Source of the DNA: Desulfobulbaceae bacterium
Lineage (GTDB): Bacteria; Desulfobacterota; Desulfobulbia; Desulfobulbales; Desulfobulbaceae
Length of the DNA: 40,917 bases
Assembly (NCBI GenBank): GCA_023544645.1
Contig: JAMJFO010000027.1
Location: 1-40,917, forward strand
Reading direction: 5' to 3'
The notes under the pieces are model-generated. The model made no database searches and was not told the origin of the DNA. It saw only the letters and a program-made list of their open reading frames with translations. Made by a program: the position numbers and the translations under genes. Of this stretch, positions 18,378 through 25,303 are shown piece after piece. The stretch's first letter is position 1, and every line of letters starts with the position of its first letter.

Positions 18378-19682
18378 TTACTCTGATTCAGCCTGAAAGC
18401 AGGCGTCTTGGCGCACCGTTTCCTCCAGCGTCCGGTCAAAATACGTTTTCATGCAGTTTATAGTGTTCATGGTCCCTGTGCGTTGAAAATCCATGTGCCG
18501 GCAGCCGCCGAAGCAGAGCGGCAGGTACGCGCACTCCCGGCATTCCTGGCGTTCCTGCCAGCGGCCGGGATGATAAACCTTGTTAGAAGCGGTAAAACCG
18601 CTCCACACGTTGCCTGCGGCATATGCCCCATGGCCGATCATGGCCACGCATTTGTCCAGGCTGCCGTCATGATTGATGACAAAGGCGTCTTCCATATCAA
18701 CCATGCAGGGGGAAGGGGATATTTTCGGGACCCGGTATCCGCGCTGCAGGACCTCCCTGCGGACCGCGATCGAGGCATCGGCCACCCAGGGCTCGTCCAC
18801 GGATAAACAGCCGCCGGTGAATTCCGGGTTGCTGTATCGGTCGGTGGTCTGCATGACCGGATGGAACTGGACATTGCTGAGGTTGTCCGGCGAGAGACCA
18901 TACCGGCTCAGGCTGTCGAGCAGTTCCGGTATGCGGGGAAAATTTTCCGAGGTGTAGTTGCCGCCGAATCCGATCCTGATCAGGTCGGCGCAGGCTGAAA
19001 TATTGGCGAGGATGGTCGCAAAGCTTGGCTTGCCTGAGGCAAAGGGCCGGAGACGGTTGTGCTCGTCGGCCGGCCCGTCCACGGTGACCTTGGCGGCATA
19101 CAGGCCCGCGGGAAGCAGTTCCGTCACTGCGTCCCGTGTCAGCAGCGAACCGTTGGTTACCAGGGAAAAATGGAAGACGCCGCCGCGCTCCTCGACAAAT
19201 TGTTTGAGCGGTGTGGCAATGTTTTTTATGGTCCCGGTGTAGAGCAGCGGCTCGCCGCCGTAGAAATCGAGGTTAAGCCGGTCCTTGCCCCGGGACGCAT
19301 ATCGCTGCTTCAGGAACGAGACCACCTGGTTGACGGTATCCTGCCCCATGGCCCGGCCGTCCTTCATGGACCCCTCGTAACAGTACCGGCAGGCAAAATT
19401 GCAGGCCAGGCCCGGGATGATCGAGACGTTGAGGCCGGTGTCCACCCGGTTCACCTCGTCCAGCAGGGTAAACACCTCCCGGCGCTCGGTTTCCGGATCA
19501 GCCGTCACCATGCCCAGCTTGGCCAGGGTTTCCGCGTACTCCTCGGGGATCACGCCCGATTGCAGGCGCCGGCAGTCTACCTCGGGCAGCAGGGCCATGG
19601 CGGAATTTTTTGTGCAAAACAGCAGCCGGTATTCAGGATCGGGTGGAAAGGAAAAAAATTTCAGGTAGCGGGACAGGTGCAT
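18378..19682 (-). CDS. Radical SAM/SPASM peptide maturase (geopeptide type)
   Basis: A 434-residue radical SAM enzyme with SPASM extension. The SAM-cluster motif is CNFACRYC (Cys 94, 98, 101) followed by YEGSMKDG; DFYGGEPLLY is the SAM-binding strand. The C-terminal SPASM cysteines appear as SPCMVDMEDAFVINHDGS, DKCVAMIGHG and CRECAYLPLCFGGCRH. The N-terminal 80 residues (SRYLKFFSFPPDPEYRLLFCTKNS) look like a peptide-binding RRE-like region. The pattern fits the family named geopeptide radical SAM maturases in TIGRFAMs, as I recall it. A 38-codon peptide gene lies upstream on the same strand and is the probable substrate. The ribosome site is poor, suggesting low expression relative to the peptide. 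The modification chemistry is unknown. Confidence 0.9.
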   Translation of the reverse strand: MHLSRYLKFFSFPPDPEYRLLFCTKNSAMALLPEVDCRRLQSGVIPEEYAETLAKLGMVTADPETERREVFTLLDEVNRVDTGLNVSIIPGLACNFACRYCYEGSMKDGRAMGQDTVNQVVSFLKQRYASRGKDRLNLDFYGGEPLLYTGTIKNIATPLKQFVEERGGVFHFSLVTNGSLLTRDAVTELLPAGLYAAKVTVDGPADEHNRLRPFASGKPSFATILANISACADLIRIGFGGNYTSENFPRIPELLDSLSRYGLSPDNLSNVQFHPVMQTTDRYSNPEFTGGCLSVDEPWVADASIAVRREVLQRGYRVPKISPSPCMVDMEDAFVINHDGSLDKCVAMIGHGAYAAGNVWSGFTASNKVYHPGRWQERQECRECAYLPLCFGGCRHMDFQRTGTMNTINCMKTYFDRTLEETVRQDACFQAESE

Positions 19683-19851: not shown

Positions 19852-19876
19852 CAACCGGGGAGCGGGCCCCCGGTTG
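19852..19876 (-). terminator. Hairpin between precursor peptide and maturase
   Basis: CAACCGGGG (19852-19860) and CCCCGGTTG (19868-19876) form a perfect 9-bp GC-rich stem with a 7-nt loop, starting about 10 bp after the peptide stop codon. On the minus strand it is not followed by a U-run, so it is probably a leaky terminator or an RNA-stabilising 3' end that keeps precursor mRNA more abundant than maturase mRNA. On the plus strand it is followed by TTTT. Confidence 0.55.
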
Positions 19877-19885
19877 TTTTATGGT

Positions 19886-20002
19886 TCACCCGTCTCCTGT
19901 CTTGTAGCGGGTAGGGCCTGTTACACAGCATGCAGCAGTTGCGGCAATTTTTTTGACCTTGACCGGCTTGGCCAGGACAATGATTTTTTTCCCTTTTTTC
20001 AC
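19886..20002 (-). CDS. RiPP precursor peptide (geopeptide-like), 38 aa
   Basis: A very small gene: GTG start at 20002, 38 residues. A textbook AAGGAGG ribosome site (20009-20015) lies 6 bases upstream of the GTG, which fixes the start. The N-terminal half is a basic leader (MKKGKKIIVLAKPVKVKK); the C-terminal half is the likely core, IAATAACCVTGPTRYKTGDG, with two adjacent cysteines (25, 26), threonines and a tyrosine available for modification. It lies 203 bp upstream of the radical SAM/SPASM maturase on the same strand, with a stable hairpin between, and about 80 bp downstream of the predicted start of a sigma-54 promoter. Size, leader-core split and neighbour all indicate a ribosomally made, post-translationally modified peptide. 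No exporter or protease gene is adjacent. The final product is unknown. Confidence 0.8.
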   Translation of the reverse strand: MKKGKKIIVLAKPVKVKKIAATAACCVTGPTRYKTGDG

Positions 20003-20090
20003 AATGCGCCTCCTTGGTAACTGGTTGCATGCCTCGAAGAACGGACCTTGACGAACCTGCTTCGCAGCATGGTAAAGATAAAGATAGTTC

Positions 20091-20107
20091 TGCAAACAAC
20101 ATGCCAG
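20091..20107 (-). promoter_or_regulatory. Sigma-54 promoter of the precursor peptide gene
   Basis: On the minus strand CTGGCATGTTGTTTGCA matches the sigma-54 (RpoN) consensus YTGGCACGRNNNTTGCW at nearly every position, with GG and GC exactly 12 bp apart. Transcription would begin near 20080, giving a leader of about 78 nt. A palindrome ACAAATTTGT (20197-20206), about 120 bp upstream of that start, is at the right distance for an enhancer-binding activator. Confidence 0.8.
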
Positions 20108-20275: not shown

Positions 20276-22177
20276 TCAGAACTTGAAGCGCAGGCCGGCT
20301 TCGAGCCAGCGTGGGGCATTGGGGAAAACGAACTGGATGTACTGATCTTGCGCAAAGATGTTGTGCAGGGCGGCAAAGATCTCGCCCTGCACCCCGGCAG
20401 GAGCCATGAACCGGTAGCCGCCCACTGCGTCCCAGAGAAATGTTCCAACCTCCCCTTCATACATTGTCGCACCTGTTACCCCTTGTTTGGATCCGTCATC
20501 AAGCCAGGCATAATGACCAAAGAGCTGAAACCTCCACCTGGAGTCGTCATACTGGAGGAGCACGTTGGCGGTGTACATGGCCTGGTCCTCCCCGTGCTCC
20601 GGCTTCATCCGCACATACATGCCGCCGGCGCCGGCGGAAAAGTTATGGAAGGTGCCGCTCCGCACTTCCAGTTCCAGGCCCTGGCGCTCAAAGTCCTCGC
20701 CGTTGATGATGGCCCGGGTGTCCGGGTCGTGGGTCCAGACATCGGTGGTCCGATGGTCGAAGAGGCTTGCCTTGAGCCGGGCAAAGGGTAGAGCAGCGGT
20801 CTCGATCCCTGCCTGGTAGGACCAGATGGTTTCCGATTCCAGGTTGGGGTTGATGATATCAAAATAGGGGTCTCCCTGCTTTAGGGTTGGATAGGGTCTG
20901 CGGAAGCCGCGGCCGACGCTGCCCCGCAGCAGGGTGTCGTCGCTGATCTGATAGGTCAGGCCCAGGCTCGGGCTGAGGATGTCATCATCGATGGACAGAT
21001 GATCATACCGCAGGCCCGGGGTGATGGTCAGCCGGTCCAGGCGGATGGTGTCGTTGACATAGAAGGCCCAGACCTCCTCAGAGAGGGTGGGGGCGGTATA
21101 CGGGGCCAGCAGGTCAAAAGTGGTGTTTTCCCTGCGCTCAATCTCCGCGCCCAGGACCATGGTCTGCCAGTCTCCGTTCCAGACCAGGCGGCCGCTGGCG
21201 CTGGTGGATTTGCCCTCGTATTCCAGGATGTTGTACGGTTCGCCGGTGGATATCCACTGCCAGTTGTCGGTTAAGGTGTCTTCCAGCCGTTTCGCGGCCA
21301 GGTTCAGGGTAAGGTTCTCGGCCAGGGGAGCGGTAAAGTCAAGGGTTGCGTAAAAGACCCGGTCATTAAATTCACCCTGATCGTCGTATTCAGACAGATA
21401 CAGATATTTGTAATCCGGCCGGCTGTAACCCATGGTGCCTTGCAGTTCCATGTCTCGCGGCAGGGGCAGGCTGAGCTTGCCGTAGAAACTCTGGTTGTCG
21501 AAAAAGCGGGTGTCCCTGATCCCGTTCGATTCCTGGCGGCCGGCATAGAGGTAGTAGCCCACCGGCCCGGCAAGGCCTGCCGCGTCAACCCGCAGGTCCG
21601 AGGTGGAGTGTTCCCCGTAGGTGCCGGAAAGGGTGCCTACGGGTTTGGCTGTATTGCCGGTCTCCTTGGTGATGATATTCACCACTCCGCCCAGGGATGA
21701 ACCCCAGGTGGAGGAGGCCGGGCCCTTGATCACCTCGATGCGCTTAATGATCTGCACCGGGATGGTATTGGTCTCCGGATAATCGTAACTCACATAGCCC
21801 CAGCGCATCCCGTCCAGGAGCACCAGGACATGGTCGAAGCCGGAGCCCTGGATGTGGATTGACGACCTGTTGCCGAAGTCCATGGTGCTGCCGTCCACAA
21901 AGAGGCCGGTGACCCGGTTGAGCACTTCCGCCACGGTATGGGCGTTCATGGCCTCGATCTCCTCGGCGGTGATGATGGTAACGTTCTCGGCCACCTGATT
22001 GATGGGCTTTGGGTTTCTGGTGGCGCTCTCGACCAGCTGGTCGGCTCCCAGGTACAGGCCGAGTTCGTCCATTTCCGCAAGCAGCGGGTCGGAATCCTCA
22101 TCAGCGGCCGCAACAACCAGGGCCGGAAACAGGGTCAGGCAGCAGGCGGCAAACATAATGCCATTGGTTTTTTTCAT
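20276..22177 (-). CDS. TonB-dependent outer-membrane receptor
   Basis: A 633-residue receptor. A signal peptide (MKKTNGIMFAACCLTLFPALVVAAA) is followed by a TonB-box-like LVESATRNPKPI and a complete plug domain: VAENVTIITAEEIEAMNAHT, VLNRVTGLFVDG, VLVLLDGMRWG, IIKRIEVIKGPASSTWGSSLGGVVNIITK. The rest is a 22-stranded-type barrel ending WLEAGLRFKF with the aromatic C-terminal residue typical of outer-membrane proteins. The size and plug resemble cobalamin/siderophore (BtuB/CirA) receptors; the substrate is unknown. AGGGAA precedes the ATG, and an untranslated-leader hairpin (AATGAGG/CTCATT) lies at about 22198-22217. It is divergent from a periplasmic binding protein and a histidine kinase, which may sense the same ligand. 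Confidence 0.94.
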   Translation of the reverse strand: MKKTNGIMFAACCLTLFPALVVAAADEDSDPLLAEMDELGLYLGADQLVESATRNPKPINQVAENVTIITAEEIEAMNAHTVAEVLNRVTGLFVDGSTMDFGNRSSIHIQGSGFDHVLVLLDGMRWGYVSYDYPETNTIPVQIIKRIEVIKGPASSTWGSSLGGVVNIITKETGNTAKPVGTLSGTYGEHSTSDLRVDAAGLAGPVGYYLYAGRQESNGIRDTRFFDNQSFYGKLSLPLPRDMELQGTMGYSRPDYKYLYLSEYDDQGEFNDRVFYATLDFTAPLAENLTLNLAAKRLEDTLTDNWQWISTGEPYNILEYEGKSTSASGRLVWNGDWQTMVLGAEIERRENTTFDLLAPYTAPTLSEEVWAFYVNDTIRLDRLTITPGLRYDHLSIDDDILSPSLGLTYQISDDTLLRGSVGRGFRRPYPTLKQGDPYFDIINPNLESETIWSYQAGIETAALPFARLKASLFDHRTTDVWTHDPDTRAIINGEDFERQGLELEVRSGTFHNFSAGAGGMYVRMKPEHGEDQAMYTANVLLQYDDSRWRFQLFGHYAWLDDGSKQGVTGATMYEGEVGTFLWDAVGGYRFMAPAGVQGEIFAALHNIFAQDQYIQFVFPNAPRWLEAGLRFKF

Positions 22178-22365: not shown

Positions 22366-23304
22366 ATGAATAGACCCCTTTTTTTGAGAATAATTCCCTG
22401 GGCGGTGATCATCCTGTTCTGCATGCAGCCGGCGCAGGGCTGGGGGGGTGAGGTGGTGGTTGTCCAGAGCGCTGGGCTGGCGCCCTACAATGAGGCCCTG
22501 CGAGGTTTTGCACACACTTTGACAAAAGACGTGCCAACCAGCGGGCCAAAATCCATCCAGGCCCACACCACAACCTCTTATATCCTTTCCGAAGTTGAAA
22601 GCCCGGTCCAGCTTCGTCAAACCCTGAGCAGGCAGCGTCCCGATCTTCTTCTGGCCATCGGCAGCAGCAGCCTTTCACTGGTCAAGGATCTGGCCGATAT
22701 ACCGATACTCTATCTCATGGTCCCGTACCCTGAATTGGTGATCGAGTCGCAGGACAATATCACCGGAATAAATATGACCATTCCGCCCTCCAGGCAGTTG
22801 GAGGCCCTTGTTCGCGTCATGCCCCAAACAGGTACGGTGGGTCTGCTGTATGATCCGGAGCGGACCGGGGCGCTGGTCCAGGAGGCGCACCAATACGCGG
22901 CGCAGCAAAACATCTCCCTTCTTGCCCTGCCGGTGGAAAACAGCAGTGAAGTTCCCAGCAGGCTTGCCAGGCTGTCAGGCAGGGCCGACTGGTTATGGAT
23001 GCTGCCGGACCGCACGGTGCTTACCCCCCAGACTATTGATCATATTTTTTTGTTCTCCCTTGAAAACAGGATCCCCATTCTCACCTTTTCGGATAAATAT
23101 TTAGACATGGGGGCGGTGCTTTCGGTGTCCCTGGACTTTTTTGACATGGGAAAACAGGCGGGGGAGATGGCGCTGAAGGTCATGGGCAGTTCGGGGATTG
23201 CAGATATCCCTCCGCAACCGGCGCGCAACGTTATTGTAAATACCAATAAAAAGGCGGCACAGATGCTGGGTATTGTTCTTGAGAATCAGGACGGCCCTGA
23301 ATAA
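22366..23304 (+). CDS. Periplasmic ABC-type substrate-binding protein (PF04392-like)
   Basis: A 312-residue exported protein. After a signal peptide ending near PAQG-WGGEV, the two-lobed periplasmic fold is suggested by VVVVQSAGLAPYNEALRGF, RQRPDLLLAIGSSSLSLVKDLADIPILYLMV, TGTVGLLYDPERTGALVQEA and GAVLSVSLDFFDMGKQAGEMA, the pattern of the ABC_sub_bind (PF04392) family. There is no permease or ATPase gene beside it; instead a membrane histidine kinase begins 4 bp after its stop. It is therefore more likely a periplasmic ligand receptor for that kinase than part of a transporter. The TonB receptor is transcribed divergently. No ribosome site stands out. The ligand is unknown. Confidence 0.85.
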   Translation: MNRPLFLRIIPWAVIILFCMQPAQGWGGEVVVVQSAGLAPYNEALRGFAHTLTKDVPTSGPKSIQAHTTTSYILSEVESPVQLRQTLSRQRPDLLLAIGSSSLSLVKDLADIPILYLMVPYPELVIESQDNITGINMTIPPSRQLEALVRVMPQTGTVGLLYDPERTGALVQEAHQYAAQQNISLLALPVENSSEVPSRLARLSGRADWLWMLPDRTVLTPQTIDHIFLFSLENRIPILTFSDKYLDMGAVLSVSLDFFDMGKQAGEMALKVMGSSGIADIPPQPARNVIVNTNKKAAQMLGIVLENQDGPE

Positions 23305-23308
23305 CCGT

Positions 23309-25303
23309 ATGGGAAAGGATGATGCACAAGGTATGAATTTTCGATCAGTTATACGGATAAACAAAAGTTTCAGCGCCAGGGTCTTCATCTATCTGTCCGG
23401 AGCAATGATCATCCTGGTCTCCACCTTTACTTTTTTTTATCTGCATAAGCAGCAGGAGTATCTTGAGTTTGAAATGATCAAGGATGGCCGGATCCTGGCT
23501 GAAATTTCGGCCAACAGCTCCAGGCTGGGAATTTTTGCCCAGGACCGGAAAATCATTTCAAACTCGCTGAAGACCGTCGTCAATGTTGAGGGGGTGGCCG
23601 GCGCCTGCGCCTATGATGTGGAAGGGCGACTCCTGCACTGTGATACCGTGCCCGGATGGCAACCCGAGGATATCTGCTTCAAGGGCAATTCCATACCCGT
23701 GAATTTTTTACCCCGGCTCCAGAATGAATCCGGGGTGATGCATATTGAAAACGAAAAATCATTTGATTTCTGGAGCCCGGTTTTGTCCAGGCCGCCGGCA
23801 TATACGGAGGAGATGCTCTATTATGATATTGAAGATAGTGGTCATCCCGGCAGGATGCACATCATCGGTTTTGTCGGCGTTGTTATGGATAAAGCTCCGC
23901 TCCAGAGGGCTATCCGCGAAATACTGATCAAAAATCTCCTGCTGCTTCTTTTCTTCCTGGCCATGGGCTGTGTGGCAACGTATTACATCGTCCGGGGCGT
24001 TTCCAGGCCCATCGCCGAGCTGGTGGAAGACATCAAGTCCGGACCCCATGCTCATGACCTGCGTCTGGCCGGCAGCAACGATGAGCTGGGGCTGCTGTCC
24101 TCCACCTACAGCGACATGATCGAATCACTGAGCAATTCCTTCCAGACCATAAGTGACCTGAAGGAAGGTCTTGAGGTCAAGGTGCGGGAACTGGAATCGG
24201 AAATAACCAAACGGAAGCGAATCGAAAACGACCTTCGGGAGAGTGAGGAAAAATTCCGCAGTATCTCAGAAGGCATTGCCGATGGCGTGGCCATCATCGT
24301 CAACGGGAAGTTTGCGTGGTATAACAGGGCGTTTTGCGCCATTTTCGGCTTCAGGCACGAAGATCTGCATGATCTTGCTGCTGAAATGTTGCTGCCGCAG
24401 GCAGACCAGATGCAGGCGCACCTGTCGGGCAGGGAAGTCTTTGTACGTTATCTTGTTGAAGCAAAAAAGCAGAATGGTTCCCCGATACTCCTTGAGGTCA
24501 ACGCGCAAAAAATTATCTATGAAGGTCAGGGGGGCATCCAGATTATCCTGCGCGATATCACCGAATCGGCGGCGGCGGAACAGAAGAGGAAGGAGCTGGA
24601 GGTCAAATCGCTTGGCCAGTCAAAGCTGGCCTCGCTGGGCAAGATCGCCACCAGTGTGGCCCATGAAATCAACCAGCCGCTCTCCTATATTAAAATCGCC
24701 AATGAAGCCATATTGCGGGACATTAAAAATCAACGGCTGGACCCGGAGGAAATGAAAGAGTCCTGCCGGGAATCCCTGCGTCAGATTGACAGGATCACCT
24801 TTATCACCAACCATCTCCGCACCTATGGACGGGCAGACACCTCACTGTTCGCCGAGATCCGGCTGCCTGATGTGCTCGCCAACAGCCTGACCCTTATGGG
24901 CGAAAGCCTGCGGCTTGCCGATATAGAGCTGGTGCGGGAGCTTGACGATGATCTGCCGCCGGTGACCGGCAATGGCGTCAAGCTTGAACAGGTGCTGATC
25001 AACCTGTTTCAGAACAGCATGGACGCATTGACCGGCTGCCCGGAGAAAAAAATCAAGATAACCATGCGGCCGGCCGGCGATATGGCGGAAATAGTGTTCG
25101 CCGACACCGGGCCCGGCATTCCGCCCGATGTGATTGAACACATATTTGAACCCTTCTTTACGACAAAAATCCTGGAAGAACGGAGCGGACTGGGGCTGGG
25201 GATCATCAACAGTATTGTCAGGGAGCACCACGGCACGATCCGGTACAGTCCGGAGGAGGGATGGGGCGCGCGCTTTCTGATCTCCCTGCCCATCCGGGCA
25301 TGA
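23309..25303 (+). CDS. Membrane sensor histidine kinase with HAMP and PAS
   Basis: About 664 residues: one membrane helix (FIYLSGAMIILVSTFTFFYL, about residues 26-46), a periplasmic domain of about 160 residues with a cysteine pair, a second helix (LLLLLFFLAMGCVATYYIV), HAMP (SRPIAELVEDI), a coiled coil, PAS, then HisKA with phospho-acceptor His 452 in SVAHEINQPLSYIK and a HATPase_c domain (N-box LINLFQNSMDAL, G-boxes ADTGPGIP and GLGLGI). ATG 23309 is chosen over a further upstream frame that lies inside the binding-protein gene; ATG 23333 is a second option. It is immediately downstream of the periplasmic binding protein, its likely input. No response regulator adjoins it, so the output partner is unknown. 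Confidence 0.92.
   Translation: MGKDDAQGMNFRSVIRINKSFSARVFIYLSGAMIILVSTFTFFYLHKQQEYLEFEMIKDGRILAEISANSSRLGIFAQDRKIISNSLKTVVNVEGVAGACAYDVEGRLLHCDTVPGWQPEDICFKGNSIPVNFLPRLQNESGVMHIENEKSFDFWSPVLSRPPAYTEEMLYYDIEDSGHPGRMHIIGFVGVVMDKAPLQRAIREILIKNLLLLLFFLAMGCVATYYIVRGVSRPIAELVEDIKSGPHAHDLRLAGSNDELGLLSSTYSDMIESLSNSFQTISDLKEGLEVKVRELESEITKRKRIENDLRESEEKFRSISEGIADGVAIIVNGKFAWYNRAFCAIFGFRHEDLHDLAAEMLLPQADQMQAHLSGREVFVRYLVEAKKQNGSPILLEVNAQKIIYEGQGGIQIILRDITESAAAEQKRKELEVKSLGQSKLASLGKIATSVAHEINQPLSYIKIANEAILRDIKNQRLDPEEMKESCRESLRQIDRITFITNHLRTYGRADTSLFAEIRLPDVLANSLTLMGESLRLADIELVRELDDDLPPVTGNGVKLEQVLINLFQNSMDALTGCPEKKIKITMRPAGDMAEIVFADTGPGIPPDVIEHIFEPFFTTKILEERSGLGLGIINSIVREHHGTIRYSPEEGWGARFLISLPIRA

Follow-up and report, generated by a model that had tools for sequence, protein, structure and literature searches.

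A geopeptide-like precursor peptide, its adjoining radical SAM/SPASM maturase and a linked TonB-dependent receptor in a Desulfobulbaceae bacterium

The window analyzed here, a 40,917-nucleotide stretch of DNA from a Desulfobulbaceae bacterium, contains a small gene for a geopeptide-like RiPP precursor, and this gene is confirmed to be real. Near-perfect one-to-one adjacent co-occurrence across the order, together with a conserved ACCxxGP-type tail, strongly supports the peptide as the substrate of the adjoining radical SAM/SPASM maturase. An outer-membrane import receptor belonging to the pair lies beside it throughout the order, and this points to a peptide that is released and then taken back rather than kept inside the cell. 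The overall reading, to which we assign a probability a little under 60%, is that the CC tail would be crosslinked through thioethers and that the receptor would recover the secreted product, perhaps carrying a metal. Searches of the open literature, 5.39 million papers (geopeptide, TIGR04280, GeoRSP, and receptor with radical SAM), found nothing on the geopeptide family. The family is recorded only through two NCBIfam models, and in the literature searched the receptor-coupled system seems to be undescribed.

The precursor gene and its relatives

The precursor gene lies on the minus strand at positions 19886–20002. It has a GTG start, 38 codons and a stop, and its product is VKKGKKIIVLAKPVKVKKIAATAACCVTGPTRYKTGDG. 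A Shine-Dalgarno sequence, AAGGAGG (20009–20015, minus strand), is recognizable from the DNA and is separated from the GTG by a 6-base spacer. A sequence-only reading of the window had described this gene and its ribosome site and had placed them upstream of a geopeptide-type maturase. The coordinates bear this out, as does the score of the maturase against the TIGR04280 model (488.8 bits, curated cut-off 400). The peptide may be divided into a leader-like segment, VKKGKKIIVLAKPVKVKKIAAT, and a core-like segment, AACCVTGPTRYKTGDG. Its translation shows no secretion signal, and neither a leader protease nor a double-glycine site is seen for it.

A chance open reading frame is rejected by three lines of evidence: a window-free profile, the substitution pattern and co-occurrence with the maturase. 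The profile is built from 27 related peptides and leaves out the window peptide and that of a genus mate (L058). It retrieves the window ORF with E=1.9e-12, and the next best of the 1104 window ORFs has E=0.57. The genus mate, whose maturase is 59–60% identical to that of the window, encodes the peptide MKKRKKLIVLARPVTPKKIAATAACCKTGPTSFKTTDDK. Between these two peptide genes, dN is 0.22 and dS is 1.29. The window genome contains exactly one geopeptide copy, and the presence of several is rejected.

Two further signals were considered in the window. A sigma-54-like -24/-12 promoter match, CTGGCATGTTGTTTGCA (20091–20107, minus strand), precedes the start of the precursor gene by about 90 bases. 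It is present in just 2 of 69 loci and is rejected as a conserved promoter or family feature. No riboswitch or other Rfam RNA is detected in the window at gathering thresholds.

The TIGR04280 homologues gathered come from the phylum, where 31 of 395 genomes exceed the cut-off, from the order, where 61 of 243 do (64 including pieces), and from named relatives. By profile search the peptide occurs in 67 of the 243 order genomes, always at a maturase or receptor locus and with one copy per locus. The peptide is encoded in each of the 64 maturase-bearing genomes, and both peptide and maturase are absent from 176. Three genomes contain the peptide without a maturase: G541 has an intact peptide and a maturase remnant, G469 has lost the maturase, and the contig of G475 breaks off inside it. 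Two loci that seemed to have a maturase and no peptide (L045 and L048) are rejected as such, and in both the peptide sits beyond an inserted MFS gene. The sequence-only reading had proposed the peptide as the substrate and had suggested looking for the tail and for co-occurrence. Both searches are positive, close homologues of the maturase do have a conserved small ORF beside them, and the proposal now has strong comparative support.

The family peptides are 27–48 amino acids long and lie just upstream of the maturase in nearly all TIGR04280 homologue loci, with a median gap of 69 bases (85 loci). They share the pattern M..K[IV][IV]VLxxGxxxxx[VI]AxxxxCCxxGPxxx. The ACCxxGP-type tail is conserved among relatives and the CC pair is present in nearly every copy. 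The core following CC varies in sequence between relatives, so the acceptor residues cannot be named.

TIGR04229, the NCBIfam model of the geopeptide precursor (22 positions, cut-off 30 bits), gives no hit to the window peptide at E≤10 and none at its place in the genome. At the same threshold it matches 11 of the 68 gathered peptides, and its best score, 29.6 bits, comes from a Geobacter-type relative. A profile-profile comparison gives a weak link between window-type and Geobacter-type peptides (E=0.0006, probability 28%). The window peptide has the context of a geopeptide, with a TIGR04280 maturase beside it, an IIVL leader and a CC tail. Homology to the Geobacter-type peptides is likely, since both adjoin the same maturase family and share the same pattern. 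The window peptide is called geopeptide-like because TIGR04229 misses it, which puts it beyond that model as it stands. The 68 precursors, mostly invisible to TIGR04229, provide a usable model for finding more.

The maturase and its predicted chemistry

The maturase gene (TIGR04280, geopep_mat_rSAM) is located at 18378–19682 on the minus strand, 203 bases downstream of the precursor gene, and encodes 434 amino acids. Its start has no clear ribosome site. Across 65 aligned maturases, the CxxxCxxC cysteines (C94, C98 and C101) and seven cysteines of the SPASM region (C326, C345, C381, C384, C390, C394 and C410) are invariant. A viral origin is rejected, as IMG/VR yields no related maturase.

The AlphaFold2 model of the maturase has a pLDDT of 95.4 and a pTM of 0.92. 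The nearest solved chain by sequence is 5wgg (E=1.8e-39). The nearest by fold is again CteB, with a Foldseek E of 5e-20 and, for 5why, a VIA-align Z of 27.6 over 386 residues (model residues 4–428). Both entries are CteB, a thioether-forming enzyme, and carry the title 'Structural Insights into Thioether Bond Formation in the Biosynthesis of Sactipeptides'. CteB and TigE are the only two of the matches listed whose alignment also covers the N-terminal domain of the maturase. This domain is predicted to consist of three strands followed by helices, as in leader-binding domains, and the model is that of a SPASM maturase with a CteB-like N-terminal leader-binding domain.

Modification of the CC tail, as the sequence-only reading had supposed, is consistent with a maturase predicted to be CteB-like. 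The leading inference is that the maturase would crosslink this tail through thioethers, because CteB is its nearest solved relative by both sequence and fold and two cysteines are present.

Three other maturases (L028:2785–3663, L030:2785–3579 and L031:2785–3678) have a C-terminal helical extension of about 270 amino acids with invariant RYxDDFID and DTDLNLY motifs. The extension has no Pfam match in any of the three. Its fold is predicted to be like that of class I terpene/isoprenoid synthases, the best Z being 8.9 with no Foldseek hit that reaches significance, and it might add a terpenoid step in these lineages.

The linked receptor and the fate of the product

On the far side of the precursor gene, also on the minus strand, is a gene for a TonB-dependent outer-membrane receptor of the geopeptide-linked clade (20276–22177), with a plug and a barrel and without an N-terminal signalling domain. 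Two genes follow on the plus strand. The first encodes a PF04392 (TrpX-like) periplasmic substrate-binding protein (22366–23304) and has no permease alongside. The second, which overlaps it, encodes a PAS-containing sensor histidine kinase with two transmembrane segments and a periplasmic loop (23273–25303). The sequence-only reading had noted that there is no exporter or protease near the precursor, which is literally true of the window, but it overlooked the receptor, the binding protein and the kinase.

The receptor family occurs in 65 of 69 maturase neighbourhoods. The PF04392 protein is found in 56 of them and a kinase/response-regulator cluster in 57. In the common layout the receptor, peptide and maturase genes share a strand and the binding-protein and kinase genes are divergent. 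Geobacter-type loci have these same genes in a different arrangement, in which the receptor gene lies on the other strand. Content is thus conserved while order has changed, which argues for function rather than for shared descent of the DNA stretch.

A search of the 243 order genomes with the window receptor gives two sharp tiers, full-length clade members and generic receptors (E of about 1e-20 to 1e-27). The clade receptor and the maturase occur together in 60 genomes, and 4 have only the maturase, 9 only the receptor and 170 neither (Fisher p=5e-42, a descriptive value that ignores shared ancestry). The four maturase-only cases are all at contig ends. Of the nine receptor-only genomes, four are contig-edge cases (G475, G464, G514 and G397), two have maturase remnants (G422 and G541) and one has lost the maturase (G469). 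The remaining two are G560, which has a divergent maturase and its own CC peptide, and G543, which has the receptor and binding protein and in which no maturase was found. In a tree of the receptors, the linked ones group together with support 0.87, and the other three receptors of the window genome fall outside their clade; three 'orphan' sequences in this tree (L186, L190 and L191) are wrong ORFs and are disregarded.

The G560 maturase (L187, 5936–7379) is 27% identical and lies near a clade receptor, and the CC peptide of this locus is MVILKKGCYVNKTQLFCCRFGPASAF. The locus is possibly a distant branch of the system. In G422, G541 and G469 (L180, L185 and L182), the receptor, binding protein and kinase are kept while the maturase has decayed or been lost. 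By analogy, these genomes resemble receptor-only users of a shared siderophore. An intact receptor is expected there if the product of others is still worth importing; alternatively, its retention could reflect recent decay of the maturase.

Other features of the window genome bear on the receptor and the binding protein. Another PF04392–receptor pair occurs elsewhere in it without a maturase, so the pairing is older and wider than the geopeptides. At two places in this genome (L174 and L175; C88 and C142), PF04392 proteins are accompanied by another binding protein, of the phosphonate type, and by a gene for an outer-membrane barrel. The barrel is that of a TonB receptor or is MtrB/PioB-like, and there are no permeases among the genes looked at. 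Against an uptake reading, PF04392 proteins are usually amino-acid-type binders, and the receptor and binding protein are a wider module.

An exporter gene is present in some relatives. In the two loci closest by maturase (L153 and L152, 63%), an MFS protein (PF07690/PF05977, MFS_3-type) is encoded between the peptide and the maturase on the opposite strand, and in three more (L134, L125 and L130) an MFS protein adjoins the maturase. Such an exporter is found in about 5 of the 69 loci. The window genome contains no close homologue of it, only distant MFS matches (25% identity).

These genes bear on where the product goes. The modified peptide could remain intracellular and act there like a cofactor or as a regulator, while the receptor imports an unrelated nutrient that peptide synthesis needs or is regulated with. 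This is unlikely. It would fit the absence of an exporter or protease beside the gene in the window and in most loci, the peptide's lack of a secretion signal, and the maturase-free receptor and PF04392 protein of the same genome. However, the receptor clade goes with the maturase almost without exception, genomes with a decayed maturase still keep the receptor, and the closest relatives have an exporter gene within the pair. The fate given in the sequence-only reading, that the product may stay intracellular or use an unlinked exporter, is too narrow, as it passed over the dedicated receptor unit and the MFS exporter of the closest relatives.

It is less probable still that the modified peptide is a pheromone, with the receptor, binding protein and kinase forming a sensing path rather than a route of nutrient uptake. 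The overlap of the binding-protein and kinase genes in the window, the recurrence of both families in 56–57 of 69 loci and the want of an adjoining ABC permease all suit such a path. The kinase could equally sense metallophore loading, however, and a TonB-dependent receptor is unusual for peptide pheromones. A bacteriocin that kills related bacteria, with the receptor as its entry port or unrelated, is very improbable: the peptide is small, cationic and cysteine-containing and its maturase is sactipeptide-like, but there is no conserved immunity gene or dedicated exporter, each locus has one slowly evolving copy under purifying selection, and a producer that keeps the entry port of its own toxin would be odd.

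The preferred reading remains that of a peptide released and recovered, although the scarcity of linked MFS exporters and the absence of a leader protease or double-glycine site count against it. Sequence data support the precursor, the precursor–maturase pairing, the link with the receptor and a hairpin between the precursor and maturase genes. The hairpin has 10 pairs (19852–19876, minus strand). Measured against dinucleotide shuffles, a hairpin at this place has z<-2 in 89% of 82 loci (mean z -4.0), compared with 16% of control stretches (mean -0.5). It is probably an attenuator or an mRNA-stabilising stem that gives precursor excess; the conserved hairpin and the strong ribosome site together fit a precursor made in excess of the enzyme.

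For the division into leader and core, the thioether chemistry, the export, the uptake of the product and its ligand, we infer the following course. The N-terminal leader (K..IIVLxKxxxxxxIAAT) would be bound by the N-terminal domain of the maturase. Radical SAM/SPASM chemistry would then act on the C-terminal ACCVTGPT core, most probably forming Cys-derived thioether crosslinks as in CteB. The ribosome site and the hairpin past the precursor stop would keep the peptide more abundant than the enzyme. The product would be exported by the adjacent MFS pump in the closest relatives and by an unlinked route in the window organism. The dedicated receptor would recover it, alone or with a ligand such as a metal ion, and the binding protein and kinase may sense its arrival in the periplasm and set expression. 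Metal binding is a guess, drawn from the CC pair and a parallel with methanobactin.

A wider proposal can be put forward only tentatively. Geopeptides may serve Desulfobacterota-type anaerobes as metallophore-like peptides or as scavengers of another kind: made on the ribosome and crosslinked by a radical SAM enzyme, they would be secreted and taken up again by way of a dedicated TonB-dependent receptor that has its own binding protein and kinase. The setting is one of sulfate- and metal-reducing relatives, in which metal scavenging matters. The near-obligate link to a single receptor clade yields a testable hypothesis of uptake for a hitherto nameless RiPP.

Comparison with known systems

Three known systems resemble the window locus in part. 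The NCBIfam geopeptide pair (TIGR04229/TIGR04280) shares a maturase above the cut-off, a short CC precursor immediately upstream of it, and a leader with IIVL followed by CC. The window differs from that pair in its leader, which is basic instead of acidic, in having AKP where xxG is usual, and in a precursor that TIGR04229 does not recognize.

The SCIFF/thermocellin maturase CteB, of the ranthipeptide/sactipeptide class, is the closest solved structure to the window maturase, N-terminal domain included, but the two are only 19% identical. The precursors of SCIFF peptides have greater length and many cysteines spaced apart, whereas the window precursor has a single CC pair.

The arrangement of the genes resembles that for methanobactin. 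Methanobactin (mbn) operons contain a short precursor, a modifying enzyme, a TonB-dependent transporter, in many cases an exporter, and regulators beside the receptor (PMC3621798). Geopeptide loci likewise have a very short precursor beside a modifying enzyme, an adjacent TonB-dependent transporter, an exporter in some cases and regulators near the receptor. The window locus has the adjacent transporter and lacks MbnB/MbnC, its modifying enzyme being a radical SAM/SPASM protein instead. Geopeptide loci also have a histidine kinase and a PF04392 protein, in contrast to the ECF sigma/anti-sigma pair of methanobactin operons. The import of a foreign methanobactin by a dedicated receptor has been documented (PMC9601215), which is a precedent for receptors in non-producers such as G422. 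If the proposal is true, the geopeptide system would be a second, chemically unrelated solution to the task of methanobactin.
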